From Elusimicrobiota bacterium (lineage in GTDB: Bacteria; Elusimicrobiota; UBA8919): a DNA stretch of 64,000 bases. Within the stretch, counting starts at the first letter, position 1, and each line of letters starts with the position of its first letter. The position numbers and the translations under genes are program-made. The notes below the pieces were generated by a model. The model ran no database searches. It was not told where the DNA came from and worked only from the letters and a program-made list of their open reading frames with translations. The stretch is taken from positions 653,186 through 717,185 of the forward strand of contig JAQUMH010000001.1 in NCBI GenBank assembly GCA_028718185.1, written 5' to 3'. Of this stretch, positions 48,083 through 57,092 are shown piece by piece.

Positions 48083-49348
48083 TTATCCGGTAATGAGCGA
48101 TATAATCGGCGAGATTACTAGAATGATTGTCAGTATTAAGAGGATTACTGTGATTGACCAACCGACAATATTTTGAAATTTATTATTCACATAACTACCC
48201 ATTATCTTCTTATCATTGACTATAATTATCATTGAAATCAATACCACCGGCAGAAGAATAGCGTTTATTACCTGGGACCAGATTGTTATCTTAATAAGCG
48301 GGGCGTTCGGTATCAATATAATAATGACCGCAGCTAATATGATAGAAGCAAATAAAGCATAAAAATAAGGTGCCTCTTTGACTTTCTTATTTATACCCGC
48401 CTCAAAACCAAAAGCCTCACAAACATAAAATGCAGTCGCCAGCGGCAGTATAGTTGCAGAAAAAATTGAAGCTACGAAAAGCCCGAAAGCAAACAACTGC
48501 GAAGCAAATACACCAGCAAACGGTTTAAGCGACATTGCTGCATCTTTAGCTTCATTTATTATAACACCATTTTTATTTAAAGTAGCCGCACAGGCAACAA
48601 TAATGAAAAATGCTACAACTACGGTAGCGACACAACCGATAATAACATCCCATACGGCATATTTATATTCTTCTATTTTAATTCTTTTCTCTATTACAGC
48701 TGACTGCATGTAAAACTGCATCCACGGTGCAATAGTTGTTCCGACAATTCCCAAAACCATACTCAAATAGTCTTTATCAAACTGCATTGTCGGTGTTACA
48801 AAAGCTTTCCCAACCTGAACCCAATCCGGCTTAGAAAGAACTGCTGATACAACATAAGATAATAGGCAGAAACTGAAAAATAAAAATATTCTTTCCGATA
48901 TTTTGTAATTCCCCTTGGTAACCAGCATCCAGACAAATACCGCAGACAACGGAACAGAAATATATTTAGATACTCCAAAAATATTCATACTACCAGCCAC
49001 ACCCGCGAATTCGGTAGCAGTATTGCCTATGTCTGCTATTATCAAACCTAAAAATATAAAAAAGGTAATTTTAACGCCAAAATTTTCCCTGATTAAATCT
49101 GCGAGTCCTTTGCCGGTAAAAATACCCATCCTTGCATTCATTTCCTGAACAACAACTAAAACAACAAAAGAAGGAATTAGCGTCCATAAAAGTTTATACC
49201 CGTATATCGCTCCTGCAACCGAATAAGTAGTAATACCACCGGCATCATTATCAACACTACCTGTAATAATACCGGGACCTAATATACTGAGAAATATCAA
49301 TATATTTACTAACATCCTGTTTTCTCTGATTTTATCCAATAGCTTCAT
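48083..49348 (-). CDS. NRAMP-related divalent cation transporter
   Basis: A 421-residue, ~11-helix transporter of the NRAMP fold. Helix 1 has GPGIITGSVDNDAGGITTYS where metal-transporting NRAMPs have DPGN, and helix 6 has GTTIAPWMQFYMQSAV where they have a Met-Pro-His motif. Loss of the transition-metal-binding Met fits the NRAMP-related Mg2+ transporter (NRMT)-like branches rather than MntH. The gene lies 5 nt downstream of one encoding an MgtE-like cytoplasmic sensor, which supports Mg2+ or a related ion as substrate. The transport direction and ion are inference. Confidence 0.85.
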   Translation of the reverse strand: MKLLDKIRENRMLVNILIFLSILGPGIITGSVDNDAGGITTYSVAGAIYGYKLLWTLIPSFVVLVVVQEMNARMGIFTGKGLADLIRENFGVKITFFIFLGLIIADIGNTATEFAGVAGSMNIFGVSKYISVPLSAVFVWMLVTKGNYKISERIFLFFSFCLLSYVVSAVLSKPDWVQVGKAFVTPTMQFDKDYLSMVLGIVGTTIAPWMQFYMQSAVIEKRIKIEEYKYAVWDVIIGCVATVVVAFFIIVACAATLNKNGVIINEAKDAAMSLKPFAGVFASQLFAFGLFVASIFSATILPLATAFYVCEAFGFEAGINKKVKEAPYFYALFASIILAAVIIILIPNAPLIKITIWSQVINAILLPVVLISMIIIVNDKKIMGSYVNNKFQNIVGWSITVILLILTIILVISPIISLITG

Positions 49349-49353
49349 ATATT

Positions 49354-50628
49354 TTATACTTCCTCTTTAATTTCACCGTATACCGCTTCAAAAGCATCTT
49401 TCAGGGTTATTATACCCATAATTTTATTTTGTTTATCTATAACAGGTATTTCGTAGAAGTTATATTTTGAAAACATCTGAGCTACTTTTTTTACATCTGT
49501 GTTAATTTTAACTTTTTTAATTCTCTTTCTCATAAAGTCGGAAACAAGTTTTGTCGGTTCCATAGACAGTAATTGCCTCAAAGTAACGATTCCTATCAAC
49601 GAATCATTATCATCTAATACATAAACATAATAAAATGATTCCGTATTTTTTGCCTTGGCTTTTACATTATTTAAAACATCATTCGCAGTTACATTGATTT
49701 TTGTAACCATAAAATCTGTGTTCATTATACTTCCGGCAATATGTTCAGAATGTGATAATAAATCTTTTATCTGGCTTACTTTTTCTTTAGGTAATATGCT
49801 GTAAAAAGAACTTACCAATTTTTTTGGCAGATGTGCCAGAAGATCCACTACTTCATCCATCGGCATTTCTTTCAAAACAACAGATAAATGTTCCTGCGGA
49901 AGCGATTCAGCAACCTGAATACGGATTTTCAAAGGTAATTCATGTAAGGTTTTTGCAGCAGTAACTTTATCTAATGAAAGAAAAATCCTTTTTCTTTCAT
50001 CAACTCCTAAATCCATCAATATATCAGACAAGTCAGCAGGATGCAATTCTGATAATTTAGGCTGTTGAATTTTTAAATGCAAAGATTCGCGTGAATTAGA
50101 ATCCTTTATTGGCTGAACATATTTCCACGAAATCAGGTTATCTTTAATTTCGTATGAAAATAATAACTGAAAAATAGCATCGACTATATGATAGCAGCCT
50201 AATCTCAACAGCAACCCTCTAAAACCAACGTTCATGTGAACAACCCAGAAATTCAGCCCTTCTCTTAGCAAATGCAAATCATTAACACGAACTACTTTGG
50301 CGCCGGAAATATCAACTATCTGCTTATCCCAAAATGTCTCCTTGAGAAGCATTTCTTCTTCACTTTGATTTACACTATTTCCCGCATTTACTGCAGGATT
50401 TTCTACATAAATTGCTTTGTCCTCAATTACTTTCTTTACATATATCCATGATAAATAAAATTTTTTCTTTTTATTTTTAATTATTAAACCGCTTACCTTT
50501 GGATACATTTCCTTGAGCAAAACCGCAACATCATCTATTTTACCTATCTTTTCATTGCTGTTAATATTAACTACAGGTAATCCTATTATTTGCGATAAAT
50601 ATATAAAACTTTTCTCAAAACCGTTCAT
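49354..50628 (-). CDS. PRC-barrel/MgtE-N/CBS protein without membrane domain
   Basis: A 424-residue cytoplasmic protein. Residues ~1-75 are a PRC-barrel-like start (GLPVVNINSNEKIGKIDDVA), with a second similar unit at ~95-165. Then comes the superhelical MgtE_N domain (~180-285: LHPADLSDILMDLGVDERKR, MDEVVDLLAHLPKK) and a CBS pair (~290-424: IAGSIMNTDFMVTKINVTAN, FYEIPVIDKQNKIMGIITLK). In MgtE these two domains sense Mg2+ and gate the channel, but the MgtE membrane domain is missing. The transporter is encoded 5 nt downstream, so it may be a sensor in trans. Confidence 0.85.
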   Translation of the reverse strand: MNGFEKSFIYLSQIIGLPVVNINSNEKIGKIDDVAVLLKEMYPKVSGLIIKNKKKKFYLSWIYVKKVIEDKAIYVENPAVNAGNSVNQSEEEMLLKETFWDKQIVDISGAKVVRVNDLHLLREGLNFWVVHMNVGFRGLLLRLGCYHIVDAIFQLLFSYEIKDNLISWKYVQPIKDSNSRESLHLKIQQPKLSELHPADLSDILMDLGVDERKRIFLSLDKVTAAKTLHELPLKIRIQVAESLPQEHLSVVLKEMPMDEVVDLLAHLPKKLVSSFYSILPKEKVSQIKDLLSHSEHIAGSIMNTDFMVTKINVTANDVLNNVKAKAKNTESFYYVYVLDDNDSLIGIVTLRQLLSMEPTKLVSDFMRKRIKKVKINTDVKKVAQMFSKYNFYEIPVIDKQNKIMGIITLKDAFEAVYGEIKEEV

Positions 50629-51005: not shown

Positions 51006-52109
51006 ATGACTTTAACAACACCTTATTATTTAATTGATGAATCAAAATTATTAAAAAATTTAAAAATAATAAAACACGTCAGGGATGTGTCCGGCGCTAA
51101 GTCGGTACTGGCTTTGAAATGTTTTTCCACCTGGTCTGTTTTTGATATTATGAATAAATACATGGACGGAACAACCAGCAGTTCCCTGTATGAGGCACGT
51201 TTAGGTCATGAAAAATTTCAAAAAGAAGTCCATGCTTACAGCGTGGCTTTTTCAAAGGAAGATATTAAAAATATAAAACAATATGCAGACAAAATAATTT
51301 TTAATTCCATATCACAGTTAAAAATGTTTTACAGTGATGTCCGCACTCTAAAAGTAGGATTAAGAGTGAATCCGCAGATCAGTTATTCTCATTTTGATTT
51401 AGCAGACCCCGCACGAAAATATTCGAGACTTGGTGTAATTGACAAGAAATCTTTATTAAAAGTAGCTCATCTAATTAGCGGTTTAATGTTTCATTTTAAT
51501 TGCGAAAATGCAGACTTTAATAATTTTTCTTCTACCCTGGATATCATCGGCAGTAAATACGGAGATTTGCTTAAAAAATTAGAGTGGATTAGTTTAGGCG
51601 GCGGACTTTATTTTACAAAAGATGGTTACCCGTTGGAAAAATTCTGCAATAAATTAAAAGAGTTCAGTGCCAAGTTCGGAGTTCAGGTATATTTAGAACC
51701 CGGAGAAACAGCTATTACACAATCAGCAGAGTTAGTAACAAAAGTTTTAGATATTGTTCATAATGAAATTGATATCGCAATAGTTGACGCTTCTACTGAA
51801 GCGCACATGCTGGACTTGCTAATTTATCGAATAGATGCTAAAATAGAAAATTCTAATCAAGGTAGATTCAAATATATGATTGCCGGGCGGTCGTGTCTGG
51901 CAGGAGATATATTCGGGACATATAATTTTAAATCCCGGTTGAAAATAGGTAGTATCGTTAGAATTACCGATGCTGCTGGATATACAATGGTGAAAAAAAA
52001 CTGGTTCAATGGACTTCAAATGCCTTCTATCGTAGTGAAAAGACTAAACGGAACTATGGATATTGTTCGCAATTTTGATTATAAAGATTATATTAACAGT
52101 TTATCATAA
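51006..52109 (+). CDS. nspC: Carboxynorspermidine decarboxylase
   Basis: A 367-residue fold-III PLP enzyme of the NspC family: TPYYLIDESKLLKNLKII, the PLP-Lys in SVLALKCFSTWSVFDI, TSSSLYEARLGHE, the phosphate-binding SLGGGLYFT, EPGETAI and AGRSCLAGDIFG. It decarboxylates carboxynorspermidine or carboxyspermidine to the polyamine in the alternative (aspartate-semialdehyde-based) route. The dehydrogenase gene for the previous step is 15 nt downstream. The ATG sits against a palindromic element and lacks a visible ribosome-binding site. Confidence 0.93.
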   Translation: MTLTTPYYLIDESKLLKNLKIIKHVRDVSGAKSVLALKCFSTWSVFDIMNKYMDGTTSSSLYEARLGHEKFQKEVHAYSVAFSKEDIKNIKQYADKIIFNSISQLKMFYSDVRTLKVGLRVNPQISYSHFDLADPARKYSRLGVIDKKSLLKVAHLISGLMFHFNCENADFNNFSSTLDIIGSKYGDLLKKLEWISLGGGLYFTKDGYPLEKFCNKLKEFSAKFGVQVYLEPGETAITQSAELVTKVLDIVHNEIDIAIVDASTEAHMLDLLIYRIDAKIENSNQGRFKYMIAGRSCLAGDIFGTYNFKSRLKIGSIVRITDAAGYTMVKKNWFNGLQMPSIVVKRLNGTMDIVRNFDYKDYINSLS

Positions 52110-52124
52110 GGAGGTTTATTAATT

Positions 52125-53381
52125 ATGAAAAAAAATGTTCTGATTATTGGTGCCGGGGGTGTCGCTCATGTAGCGGCACATAAAGCTGCTCAAAACAACG
52201 ATGTGTTGGGAGATATCTGCATAGCGTCACGGAAACAGGAAAAATGTGAAAAAATAATTGAAAGCGTTCTCAGGAAAAACAACCTTAAAGACAAGACAAA
52301 AAAAATATATGCCAAGCAGTTTAATGCGCTGGATGTCCAGTCAACCATAAAACTGATAAAAGAAACTAAATCTTCCATAGTTATTAATCTTGGTGCATCC
52401 TTCATTAACATGTCAGTTTTGGAAGCATGCATGGAAACCGGTGTAGTTTATCTGGATACTGCTATTCATGAGGAACCGAACAAGGTATGTGAGAATCCGC
52501 CATGGTATGCTAATTACGAGTGGAAACGAAAAGACCGTTGCAAACAAAAAGGTGTAACAGCTATACTTGGCGTTGGATTTGACCCAGGCGTTGTCAATGC
52601 TTATTGTGCCCTTGCAGTGAAACATCATTTTGATAAAATAGATACTATAGATATAATGGATGTCAATGCAGGCAGTCATGGAAAATATTTCGCCACTAAC
52701 TTTGACCCTGAAATAAATTTCAGGGAATTCGTTAAGGTATGGACTTGGATTGACCGCAAATGGGTATGCAAACCAATCCATACGGAAAAACTGGTCTATG
52801 ATTTTCCTGTTGTAGGTAAACAGACCGTGTACCTGAACGGCCATGATGAACTGCATTCTCTTTCAAAAAACATTGATGCAAACAGTATACGGTTCTGGAT
52901 GGGGTTCAGCGACCATTACCTGAATTGCTTTAGCGTACTGAAAAACATCGGATTACTTTCAGAAAAACCTGTACGGACAGCTGAAGGGCTGGAAGTCATA
53001 CCGTTAAAAGTTGTAAAAGCATGTTTACCTGACCCGATGTCACTGGCTCCAAACTATACAGGTAATACTTGTATCGGTAATTTAATAAAAGGTAAAAAAG
53101 ACGGCAAGAAAAAAGAAATATTTATTTATAATGTCTGCGACCACAAGGAATGTTACAATGAAGTGGAGTCCCAGGCAATCAGTTATACTGCAGGAGTACC
53201 GCCGGTGGCAGCAGCCATGCTTGTGTCAGACGGCGTATGGGATGTTAAAACTATGGTAAATGTTGAAGAGCTGGACCCGGACCCGTTCATTGAACTATTA
53301 AACAAAACCGGACTGCCGACAGAAATCATAGAAACCAAGTGGCACAGGGTTTCAAAAACTGCTGAGCATAAATCTACATAG
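52125..53381 (+). CDS. Carboxynorspermidine dehydrogenase (saccharopine dehydrogenase family)
   Basis: A 418-residue NADPH-dependent enzyme related to saccharopine reductase: Rossmann motif VLIIGAGGVAHVAAHKAAQ, GVTAILGVGFDPGVVNAYCA, DVNAGSHGKYFATNFDPEIN and SYTAGVPPVAAAMLVSDGVW. It condenses aspartate semialdehyde with a diamine to carboxynorspermidine or carboxyspermidine. AAGGAGG precedes the ATG. It is the second gene of the polyamine operon; a strong terminator follows. Confidence 0.93.
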   Translation: MKKNVLIIGAGGVAHVAAHKAAQNNDVLGDICIASRKQEKCEKIIESVLRKNNLKDKTKKIYAKQFNALDVQSTIKLIKETKSSIVINLGASFINMSVLEACMETGVVYLDTAIHEEPNKVCENPPWYANYEWKRKDRCKQKGVTAILGVGFDPGVVNAYCALAVKHHFDKIDTIDIMDVNAGSHGKYFATNFDPEINFREFVKVWTWIDRKWVCKPIHTEKLVYDFPVVGKQTVYLNGHDELHSLSKNIDANSIRFWMGFSDHYLNCFSVLKNIGLLSEKPVRTAEGLEVIPLKVVKACLPDPMSLAPNYTGNTCIGNLIKGKKDGKKKEIFIYNVCDHKECYNEVESQAISYTAGVPPVAAAMLVSDGVWDVKTMVNVEELDPDPFIELLNKTGLPTEIIETKWHRVSKTAEHKST

Positions 53382-53487: not shown

Positions 53488-53964
53488 TTACTTCTTTACA
53501 GGTTCTTTTTGTTTTGGTGGAATATGCACAGTGATTGATTTAGCTACTTTTTTGTCCGCTGACATAAAATAAACAACGGAAACTTTATCACCGCTAACAA
53601 TATCCGCAAGAGTGATTTTCTTGTCCGCTTTCATAACTGTCGTTTTGTCATCTGTTGTAACTGTTTCATCAACACTCTTTTTCTCTTTACCTAATGTAGA
53701 AATAACAATTGTATTATTTGCAGCATCAATTGATGCTACAGTCCCTTTCAATCTCATTGTCTTTACTTTTGCAACCGGAGCAGCTTTTTTAGCCGGCTCT
53801 GCTTTTGCGGGTGCCACTGCCGGTGTCGCTGGCGTTGCCGGTGTCGCTGGAGCTACTGATGTTGCCGGTGTCGCAGGTGTTGCCGGAACAACACTATCTG
53901 CTGCTTTCACAAAAACCAATGTTCCTACTAATAACATTACTACCAACAAAATAACTTTCTTCAT
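53488..53964 (-). CDS. Exported Ala/Pro-rich protein with small beta domain (DUF5666-like)
   Basis: A 158-residue exported protein. A signal peptide (MKKVILLVVMLLVGTLVFVKA) is followed by a low-complexity linker of PATPATPA and APAKAEPAKKAAP repeats, then a ~80-residue beta-rich domain (LKGTVASIDAANNTIVIS, ITLADIVSGDKVSVVYF) resembling the OB-like DUF5666 pattern, and a basic tail. Function unknown. The ATG at 53964 has AGGAGG 7 nt upstream; an earlier in-frame start lacks support. The ~270-nt upstream region has a structured leader and a Pho-box-like promoter. Confidence 0.75.
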   Translation of the reverse strand: MKKVILLVVMLLVGTLVFVKAADSVVPATPATPATSVAPATPATPATPAVAPAKAEPAKKAAPVAKVKTMRLKGTVASIDAANNTIVISTLGKEKKSVDETVTTDDKTTVMKADKKITLADIVSGDKVSVVYFMSADKKVAKSITVHIPPKQKEPVKK

Positions 53965-54017
53965 TACTATACCTCCTTTTATCTTTACCCGTCCACACAT
54001 AATGCGTAAAGGGAATT

Positions 54018-54381: not shown

Positions 54382-55188
54382 TTATGTGATTTTTTTATAT
54401 AGGAGGCTGAGGACAAACAATAGGACATTTACCATTACAACTGTTGCTCCTGCGGGCAGATTCAGGAAAAAGGAAAAGATAATCCCGATAAGTACAGAGA
54501 AAAGCGCAACAATACTTCCTATTAGCATAGCTGATTTAAAACCTTTGGCGACCTGCAAAGCAGTAACGGACGGTAAAATAAGAAGCGCGGAGACAAGCAT
54601 TATTCCAACCATTTTTACTGATAAAACAACTGTTATCGCTGTAAGGAGGGTGAGAAGCGTATTGATAAAATTTGTTTTTATTCCGGTTGTTTTGGCGTAT
54701 TCTTCATCAAATGTTACAGAAAAAAGATCGTAATAGAAAATATAAATAACCGATAAAACTATAAGAGATAAAACTATTGACAATACTACTTCAGTAGTAC
54801 TGATTGATAAAATATTACCGAACAGGTAACTGAACAAATCAACATTAAAACCTTTGGAAATACTGGCTAAAATAACACCGCCGGCAATTCCGACCGCAGA
54901 TACAATACCTATAGCAGCATCACCGTATACCTTCGCTTTTTCCGTAATTTTTAAAACCACAATTGAACTAATCATAACCAAAGGTACTGCCACATAAAAA
55001 GGATATACGCCGAAAAAAAGTCCCAAAGCAATGGCGCCGAAACTGACATGAGAAAGACCGTCACCAATCAAAGACATTTTTCGCAAGACCAGAAATAAGC
55101 CGAGCGAAGAGCAAAGCACAGCAACAAACGAGCCGGCTAAAAATGCTTTTTGAATGAAAGAGTATTGCAAAATATTTATTATATCCAT
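54382..55188 (-). CDS. ZnuB-family metal ABC transporter permease
   Basis: A 268-residue permease of the ABC-3 family (ZnuB/MntB): MDIINILQYSFIQKAFLAGS, LVLRKMSLIGDGLSHVSFGA, the conserved loop around FDEEYAKTTGI, and about eight helices. It imports Zn2+ or Mn2+ with the ATPase and binding protein encoded upstream. I start at the ATG at 55188; the in-frame TTG ten codons earlier lies within a palindromic element that abuts the gene. No ribosome-binding site is visible. Confidence 0.92.
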   Translation of the reverse strand: MDIINILQYSFIQKAFLAGSFVAVLCSSLGLFLVLRKMSLIGDGLSHVSFGAIALGLFFGVYPFYVAVPLVMISSIVVLKITEKAKVYGDAAIGIVSAVGIAGGVILASISKGFNVDLFSYLFGNILSISTTEVVLSIVLSLIVLSVIYIFYYDLFSVTFDEEYAKTTGIKTNFINTLLTLLTAITVVLSVKMVGIMLVSALLILPSVTALQVAKGFKSAMLIGSIVALFSVLIGIIFSFFLNLPAGATVVMVNVLLFVLSLLYKKIT

Positions 55189-55190
55189 AT

Positions 55191-55387
55191 TAGTTAGGCT
55201 TGAAGGGTCTGGCGACAACTAAAAAACTATAATTAAATTGTAGTTTCACGCCCTCGGCGTGATAATATTGAAATTCCTATACATCAAGTCAAGCCGACTC
55301 CGCCACAAAACGTTGGCGGACAAGCAAGGTCGGCAACTACAGAAAGATTGTAGCGGCAGAGCTTGCTCTGCATTACTGAACAATAAA
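55191..55387. repeat. Two tandem composite palindromic elements between znuC-like and znuB-like genes
   Basis: The first copy (55191-55284) has AAGGGTCTGGCGACAACTA, ATAATTAAATTGTAGT, CACGCCCTCGGCGTG and ATTGAAATTCCTATACAT. The second (55285-55387) has CCGCCACAAAACGTTGGCGG nested in CCGAC..GGTCGGC, AACTACA..TGTAGC and GGCAGAGCTTGCTCTGC. Together they fill the entire 199-nt gap from stop to start codon. Confidence 0.8.
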
Positions 55388-56140
55388 TCAGTCGTGCTGG
55401 TGGCAGATTAGATGTTTTTGGGCATCTCCAAAATACAAACTCATTTCGGATGAATTACAAAATTCATTGAATTTTCCGAAATAAACCACCTTTTTATCTA
55501 TGTACAACAACTTACCGGCATATTGCCCGATATAGCTGGTAGCATGTGTAATTAAAATGACTGTGACGCCGGTTTCATGGTTTAATCGCTTTACTATTTC
55601 GAAAAAAGATTCTCTGGATTGCGGGTCTAACGCCGTGCTCGGCTCGTCGAAAATCAAAAGTTCCGGACGCGACACCAGGGCGCGGGCTAACAAAACCTTT
55701 TGCTGCTGGCCTCCTGAAAGTTCGCTAAGAATTTTTCTTTTAAGGTTGGTAATTCCTGATATTTCTAATATTTCATCAACTCTATTCCTATCGTCATTCG
55801 TTATTCTTCTCGGCAGTTTCTTTTGAGATAAAAGTCCGAGTATAACCACTTCCTCCACAGTTGCAGGGAAAAGCACATTTATTGCAGAGGATTTTTGCGG
55901 CAAATATCCTATTTTCCCCCAGTTGCTAAATTTAGACTGCGGCATACCGAATAGCTTTATCTCCCCGGCAGTTGACGGTAAAAGACCTAATATTGTTTTT
56001 ATAAGAGTGGTTTTTCCTGCACCATTAGGACCGGCTAACCCGATATAATCACCTGCCTCAACTGTAAAAGAAACATCTTTAATAACTTCAGTCTGACCGT
56101 AGTTTATGGATAATTGTTTAATTTCAATAATTGCAGACAT
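55388..56140 (-). CDS. ZnuC-family metal ABC transporter ATPase
   Basis: A 250-residue ABC ATPase: Walker A GPNGAGKTT, signature LSGGQQQKV, Walker B/D-loop LLIFDEPSTALDP, switch His in VILITHATSYIGQYAG. The C-terminal end HLICHQHD is rich in potential metal ligands, as in several zinc-importer ATPases. It sits 4 nt after the binding-protein gene and is followed by the permease gene beyond a repeat-filled gap. Confidence 0.92.
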   Translation of the reverse strand: MSAIIEIKQLSINYGQTEVIKDVSFTVEAGDYIGLAGPNGAGKTTLIKTILGLLPSTAGEIKLFGMPQSKFSNWGKIGYLPQKSSAINVLFPATVEEVVILGLLSQKKLPRRITNDDRNRVDEILEISGITNLKRKILSELSGGQQQKVLLARALVSRPELLIFDEPSTALDPQSRESFFEIVKRLNHETGVTVILITHATSYIGQYAGKLLYIDKKVVYFGKFNEFCNSSEMSLYFGDAQKHLICHQHD

Positions 56141-56144
56141 ATTT

Positions 56145-57092
56145 TTAGTCTTGATATTTAAGACCGGTTTTTAAATTCTTTAAATTATTTTCCATTATGG
56201 AAACAAACGATATATTATTATTGAATTGCTCTTTAGAAATATTATGTGCCGCATTTAAAAAAAGCATTTTCGCTTTAGTTTCATTTGTAATGGTTTCAGC
56301 TATCTTCGGGCTGGTCAATTCCTCGTAAAAAACATATTCAATTTTGTCTTTCCTAATCTGATTAATTAATTTTATAAGGTCTTGAACAGTCGGCTCAGCG
56401 TCCGGAGAAACTCCCTGTGCGGACAAATACTTTAAACCATAACGGTTGGCTAAATATCCGAAAGCATAATGCCCGCAATAGATGATTTCTTTGTTTTTAC
56501 AACTAGCCAGAGACTTTTTATATTCGTTATCTAACTTTGAAAGAGTATCTTTATATTTCCTGGATTGTTGTTTGTAAAATTCTTTATTGCCCGGATCCTT
56601 TTCACATAAAGCTTGTGTGATATTGTCAACCATAATTTTAGCGTCATCAAAATCAAGCCAGATATGCGGGTCAAGCGAACCTTTCTTTTTGTCTTTATCC
56701 CGGGAAACTGCCTGGATCATTCTCGTCCCTTTACTGGAATCTACAACCTTGACATTTTTATCTATGGAACCTTTTATTACGTCTTCTGCCCACGGTTCCA
56801 TAAATTTACCTGTATATATAAAAACACCGGATTTGCTTATTCTTATAATGTCGCTGGGCTTAGGCTCAAACGAATGAGCTTCAACACCCGGAGGTAAAAG
56901 CAAGGAAATATCCAATTTATCCTGCCCGATATTTCTGGCAAAATCATACAGCGGGAAAAGCGTGGTTACGACTTTGATTTTTTTAGTTTCAATATCAGGT
57001 TTGCGTGAAAGATTTGATATTATTAATAAGCTCAAAATAACTACTACGAGAAATATTGTAATAAACGCTATCTTTTTATTCATATTTTTCAA
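56145..57092 (-). CDS. ZnuA-family metal-binding protein
   Basis: A 315-residue extracytoplasmic solute-binding protein of cluster 9 (ZnuA/MntC). Probable ligands are the His residues in PPGVEAHSFEPKPSD, DPHIWLDFDD and IIYCGHYAFGYLANRYG, plus an acidic residue in the C-terminal lobe (SPDAEPTVQDL). There is no His-rich loop; that segment is short and charged (RDKDKKKGS). The N-terminus is an uncleaved-looking membrane anchor with no lipobox Cys. It delivers Zn2+ or Mn2+ to the downstream permease/ATPase. No clear Zur operator was found, although TATAATTATA lies ~50 nt upstream. Confidence 0.9.
   Translation of the reverse strand: MKNMNKKIAFITIFLVVVILSLLIISNLSRKPDIETKKIKVVTTLFPLYDFARNIGQDKLDISLLLPPGVEAHSFEPKPSDIIRISKSGVFIYTGKFMEPWAEDVIKGSIDKNVKVVDSSKGTRMIQAVSRDKDKKKGSLDPHIWLDFDDAKIMVDNITQALCEKDPGNKEFYKQQSRKYKDTLSKLDNEYKKSLASCKNKEIIYCGHYAFGYLANRYGLKYLSAQGVSPDAEPTVQDLIKLINQIRKDKIEYVFYEELTSPKIAETITNETKAKMLFLNAAHNISKEQFNNNISFVSIMENNLKNLKTGLKYQD

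Follow-up and report, generated by a model that had tools for sequence, protein, structure and literature searches.

Pairs consisting of an NRMT-type transporter gene and a gene for a detached MgtE-type sensor have been known since 2014, and the locus described here is a further example. Shin et al. 2014 (PMC4072509, cited here and below from the portions of the text available to us) reported a gene for the MgtE cytoplasmic domain beside most nrmT genes, as well as, in C. acetobutylicum, a version that is split, and proposed that the MgtE-like protein exerts feedback regulation, with chaperone activity named as an alternative. The NrmT of C. acetobutylicum was functional without its own MgtE-like gene, which counts against the feedback model. 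For the Acidobacterium capsulatum pair, the one pair tested, the transporter restored Mn2+ uptake fully but Mg2+ uptake only weakly, and co-expression of the MgtE-like gene gave no added Mg2+ rescue; these results argue for caution. However, such a rescue assay is blind to a negative regulator, and the missing added rescue therefore does not settle the matter of gating. In the literature that we searched, outside the scope of which lie many subscription papers, we found no test of direct regulation of NrmT by the MgtE-like fragment.

The closest structurally characterized transporter is EleNRMT of Eggerthella lenta (Ramanadane et al. 2022, PMC8806188, likewise cited from the parts available to us). 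According to this source, NRMTs are defined by the motifs DxxG (helix 1) and TxxA/T (helix 6), whereas canonical NRAMPs carry DxxN and A/CxxM, and two histidines of helix 6b are replaced in EleNRMT by Trp and Asn. No sensor gene is discussed in those parts of the paper. Here, we analyze a sensor–transporter pair in a 64,000-nucleotide stretch of an Elusimicrobiota genome (hereafter, the window), compare it with these systems and trace related pairs across the phylum and on plasmids.

Results

Gene order at the locus

The initial annotation gave the positions, strand and 5-nt spacing of the two reading frames correctly (Table 1), and the short gap is consistent with a single transcript covering sensor and transporter. 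An Rfam search yielded no credible leader RNA at the locus and, in the whole window, only two tRNAs and no M-box; a scan for consensus promoters and terminators returned counts close to the shuffled expectation. None of 8 other window genes was found in the six related loci L002-L007 (flanks ≤6 kb). The divergent neighbours at 51006-53381, also absent from L002-L007, encode a pyridoxal phosphate (PLP) decarboxylase and a saccharopine-dehydrogenase-like protein, a pair which we take to resemble the carboxynorspermidine-type polyamine pathway. Farther along lie a small protein (53488-54000) that looks exported, contains Ala-Thr-Pro repeats and matches DUF5666 below the threshold, and a metal-type ABC set (54382-57092) comprising an ABC-3 permease and an ATPase, both recognized by Pfam, together with a binding protein assigned by visual inspection.

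Table 1. Features of the sensor–transporter locus (window coordinates).
Feature	Position	Strand	Length	Basis
Detached MgtE-type sensor gene	49354..50628	-	424 aa	ORF, Pfam, NCBIfam, alignment to Thermus MgtE
Intergenic gap	49349..49353	-	5 nt	Between sensor stop and transporter ORF
NRMT-type NRAMP transporter gene	48083..49348	-	421 aa	ORF, Pfam, EleNRMT match, site residues

The transporter carries the NRMT signature

The downstream protein belongs to the Nramp family (PF01566, aa 39-389, 328.3 bits, 7.3e-98), and its best solved relative is EleNRMT (7qia; 365.7 bits, E 3.1e-108, residues 7-416), followed among solved structures by MntH chains, none of which exceeds about 114 bits. As first annotated, the NRAMP fold has DNDAGG in place of DPGN and APW in place of the Met-Pro-His motif: TM1 reads VDNDAGGIT and TM6 reads GTTIAPWM, versus IDPGNWA and GAVVMPHN in the canonical relatives of the phylum. 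An assignment to the canonical NRAMP/MntH proteins was considered and rejected, since DAGG and APW stand where their DPGN and MPH motifs would be. The metal site, D35-x-x-G38 with T204-x-x-A207, corresponds to the NRMT signature. The proton-path histidines of TM6 are replaced by W209 and M214, and the TM3 glutamate, E113, is retained. Across 24 aligned transporters, N34, D35, A36, G37, E113 and W209 are invariant wherever a letter is present. EleNRMT shares NDAGG, GTTIAPWM, the TM3 Glu and the Trp with the window protein, from which it differs at the second proton-path position (Asn rather than M214).

The sensor resembles the MgtE cytosolic region and lacks the channel

Pfam identified in the upstream protein a PRC domain (aa 8-79, 3.8e-9), MgtE_N (195-295, 6.4e-21) and two CBS stretches (4e-19) that together span about aa 300-417, bearing out the annotated combination of MgtE_N and a CBS pair without the MgtE membrane domain. 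The channel domain (PF01769) was found by Pfam neither in this protein nor anywhere in the window genome; the NCBIfam model of full MgtE covers the protein only at model positions 24-258 of 450, and its alignment with Thermus MgtE is confined to the cytosolic part, ending close to where the plug helix begins. Thus, compared with MgtE of Thermus thermophilus (2yvx), the sensor lacks the channel domain and has an extra N-terminal region including a PRC barrel. PRC-like units had been annotated in the plural; one is significant, and a second is possible at about 88-190, where there is no significant match (profile-profile probability 2.5%, E 0.019) and model pLDDT is below 50 over most of the segment. 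The AlphaFold2 model of the sensor, built from 7 sequences, is poor overall (mean pLDDT 48, pTM 0.32), with moderate values only at about residues 10-80 and 200-290. The PRC domain is not mentioned for NrmT partners in the portions of PMC4072509 available to us, and we found no paper in the literature searched in which a PRC barrel occurs together with MgtE. As a channel-less homologue of the MgtE cytoplasmic domain encoded beside an nrmT-type gene, the protein falls among the MgtE-like fragment partners of NrmT.

Mg2+-site and ATP-site residues of MgtE were taken from the available parts of PMC5882242 and PMC5529423, and MgtE numbering was transferred through the Thermus MgtE alignment with a 23-residue offset between chain and paper; every checked acidic plug-helix residue lands on an acidic letter. 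Only part of these residues is retained in the sensor. D258, D262 and D411 correspond to the Mg4/Mg6 ligands D91, D95 and D247; among 26 sensors, they are retained in 21, 26 and 25, respectively. Conservation of D411 is weak evidence of Mg2+ sensing, because this is presumably also a generic CBS position. The Mg5 site is partly altered (N390, for MgtE D226, and E414), the Mg7 ligand is lost (MgtE E59 to K226), and E422 and E423 occupy would-be Mg2 and Mg3 ligand positions. In the ATP pocket, Y334, R351 and F391 are retained, and MgtE D188 and N203 are replaced by Q352 and R367. Judged from these residues, the sensor may plausibly have a reduced Mg2+ site, and its binding of ATP is uncertain.

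The detached sensors of the phylum adjoin NRMT-type genes

MgtE_N-CBS matches (E 1e-20) occur in 37 of 198 Elusimicrobiota genomes; 11 of these encode a full-length detached sensor, and all the other 26 encode the MgtE channel domain. Eight of the 11 sensors are close to that of the window and three (G149, G159 and G068) are divergent, and every one has as its neighbour an NRAMP gene whose product carries DNDAGG and [AT]PW. The 20 NRAMP genes of the phylum above the cut-off comprise these 11, 6 with DPGN/MPH, 2 with DVDA/IMPF and 1 other (G106). No sensor was found beside the 8 DPGN/MPH or DVDA/IMPF genes within flanks of about 1.4 kb, and neither DNDAGG nor [AT]PW occurs in them. With loci L003-L006, which come from outside the phylum set, the survey suggested at first annotation, of MgtE_N-CBS proteins without a membrane domain beside NRAMP-like genes, gives adjacency in 15 of 15 distinct full-length loci; L002 and L007 apparently correspond to G086 and G163, with the same identities (L002 with L011, L007 with L014). 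The arrangement is conserved in more than one phylum and recurs far above chance. The phylum-wide adjacency of detached sensors to NRMT-type genes, 11 of 11 across 198 genomes, is new.

Plasmid relatives and partner exchange

Most of the sensor sequence is also carried by 18 plasmid records, from which we examined 11 loci, setting aside 7 near-identically scoring records listed under the same or a related organism. An adjacent NRAMP gene with DNDAG and APW is present in 9 of the 11, the sensor preceding the transporter gene in 4 and following it in 5; within about 3 kb of the sensor, none was found in the Tsukamurella and Nonomuraea plasmids. In the Tsukamurella plasmid (L071:2989-4802), the detached sensor-like gene is followed by a DUF1003 gene rather than an NRAMP gene. 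Heavy-metal ATPase and ArsR/SmtB genes adjoin two of the plasmid relatives.

Among the 20 of 73 related loci that were searched for it, the M-box aptamer was detected in 4; as only part of the NRMT members are preceded by this riboswitch, it does not strictly define them. One of these is on an Alicyclobacillus plasmid (L062:2704-5491), where an M-box is followed by a sensor and then an NRMT gene. The L062 transporter is 70.9% identical to that of the window and groups with the window's transporters, whereas its sensor is 30% identical and falls outside the group of all close sensors. A topology forced to agree was rejected in the case of the sensors (p-AU 6.6e-5) and, less strongly, in that of the transporters (0.011), with groups that were named after the trees had been seen, a long branch for the L062 sensor, and L028 left out since its transporter is cut. 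Because the two trees disagree, partners have probably been exchanged, a reading that these limits of the trees make suggestive only.

These observations bear on the possibility that the MgtE-like protein acts separately, as a chaperone for Mg2+ or in signalling, and is only co-expressed with the transporter, the former function being that named by Shin et al. in the part of PMC4072509 available to us. The two plasmid sensors standing apart from NRAMP genes, one of them beside DUF1003, and the probable exchange of partners would fit such independence. Nevertheless, adjacency in all 15 distinct loci, and its survival when the gene order is reversed, favour a working partnership, and we regard a separate, merely co-expressed protein as unlikely.

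Substrate of the transporter

In the window genome (completeness 96.7%), neither MgtE nor CorA is matched, nor is MgtA at 1e-100. All three importers are missing above the cut-off from 7 of the 11 genomes with the pair versus 15 of the 187 others (Fisher p 2e-5, a descriptive value, the genomes being related). The exceptions among the pair genomes are G083, with MgtE and CorA, G068, with CorA, and G149 and G159, with MgtA; in G036 and G163, weak MgtE matches lie below the cut-off. A single CNNM/CorC-type protein, which has CBS domains, was found in the window genome (L073, G000:C1:473036-474004).

Shin et al. suggested that an M-box indicates specificity for Mg2+ (PMC4072509, in part), and we favour Mg2+ over Mn2+ because the 71%-identical plasmid transporter sits, together with its own sensor gene, behind an M-box. 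Mainly Mn2+ (or another transition metal) could instead be imported, with the MgtE-like protein sensing that metal, as suggested for the A. capsulatum pair: according to the same source, with the NrmT encoded beside that MgtE-like gene, rescue of a Mn2+ defect was complete, and rescue of a Mg2+ defect was confined to low millimolar Mg2+. The window locus itself is devoid of an M-box, and the heavy-metal ATPase and ArsR/SmtB neighbours of two plasmid relatives point the same way. Yet a genome without CorA, MgtE and MgtA above the cut-off speaks against this alternative, as does the M-box on the close relative, and the nearby metal-type ABC system could supply Mn2+/Zn2+. We therefore consider Mn2+ unlikely to be the main substrate and Mg2+ to be probably so. 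The site residues, the nearest homologue of known structure, the M-box preceding the 71%-identical relative and the absence of further known Mg2+ importers from the genome thus support the initial assignment to the Mg2+-type NRAMPs.

Discussion

Taken as a whole, we slightly favour the explanation that the two genes form an NrmT/NRMT operon encoding a Mg2+ importer with a feedback sensor acting in trans. The NRAMP-fold protein would import a divalent cation in hydrated form, with Mg2+ as the likeliest candidate, and its DxxG/TxxA site is devoid of the Met and the histidines that fit canonical NRAMPs to Mn2+/Fe2+ and to proton coupling. The PRC-MgtE_N-CBS protein, soluble and probably a CBS dimer, would bind cytoplasmic Mg2+ and perhaps a nucleotide, and would feed back negatively on the transporter, so that domains which work in cis in MgtE would here do so in trans. 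Direct feedback of this kind is, on balance, somewhat favoured, and gating in trans by the MgtE-like protein, proposed as speculation already in 2014, is a reasonable guess.

The window pair resembles the operons of Shin et al. 2014 in joining an NRAMP-outgroup transporter to a homologue of the MgtE cytoplasmic domain, and differs from them in belonging to another phylum and in the absence of an M-box from its locus. A farther-reaching proposal, which we hold to be doubtful, is that an NRMT with a swappable, trans-acting MgtE-type sensor displaced CorA, MgtE and MgtA in this lineage and became its sole dedicated Mg2+ importer, the sensor being a modular regulatory subunit that changed transporter partners in the course of evolution.

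Our results broaden the published pairing and do not constitute a new type of system. If the favoured explanation is right, the locus would offer a clean system for the question raised in 2014, namely the role of the MgtE-like fragment for NrmT. A genome without CorA, MgtE and MgtA above the cut-off, together with relatives preceded by an M-box, makes a good case for Mg2+ and provides candidates for reconstitution.
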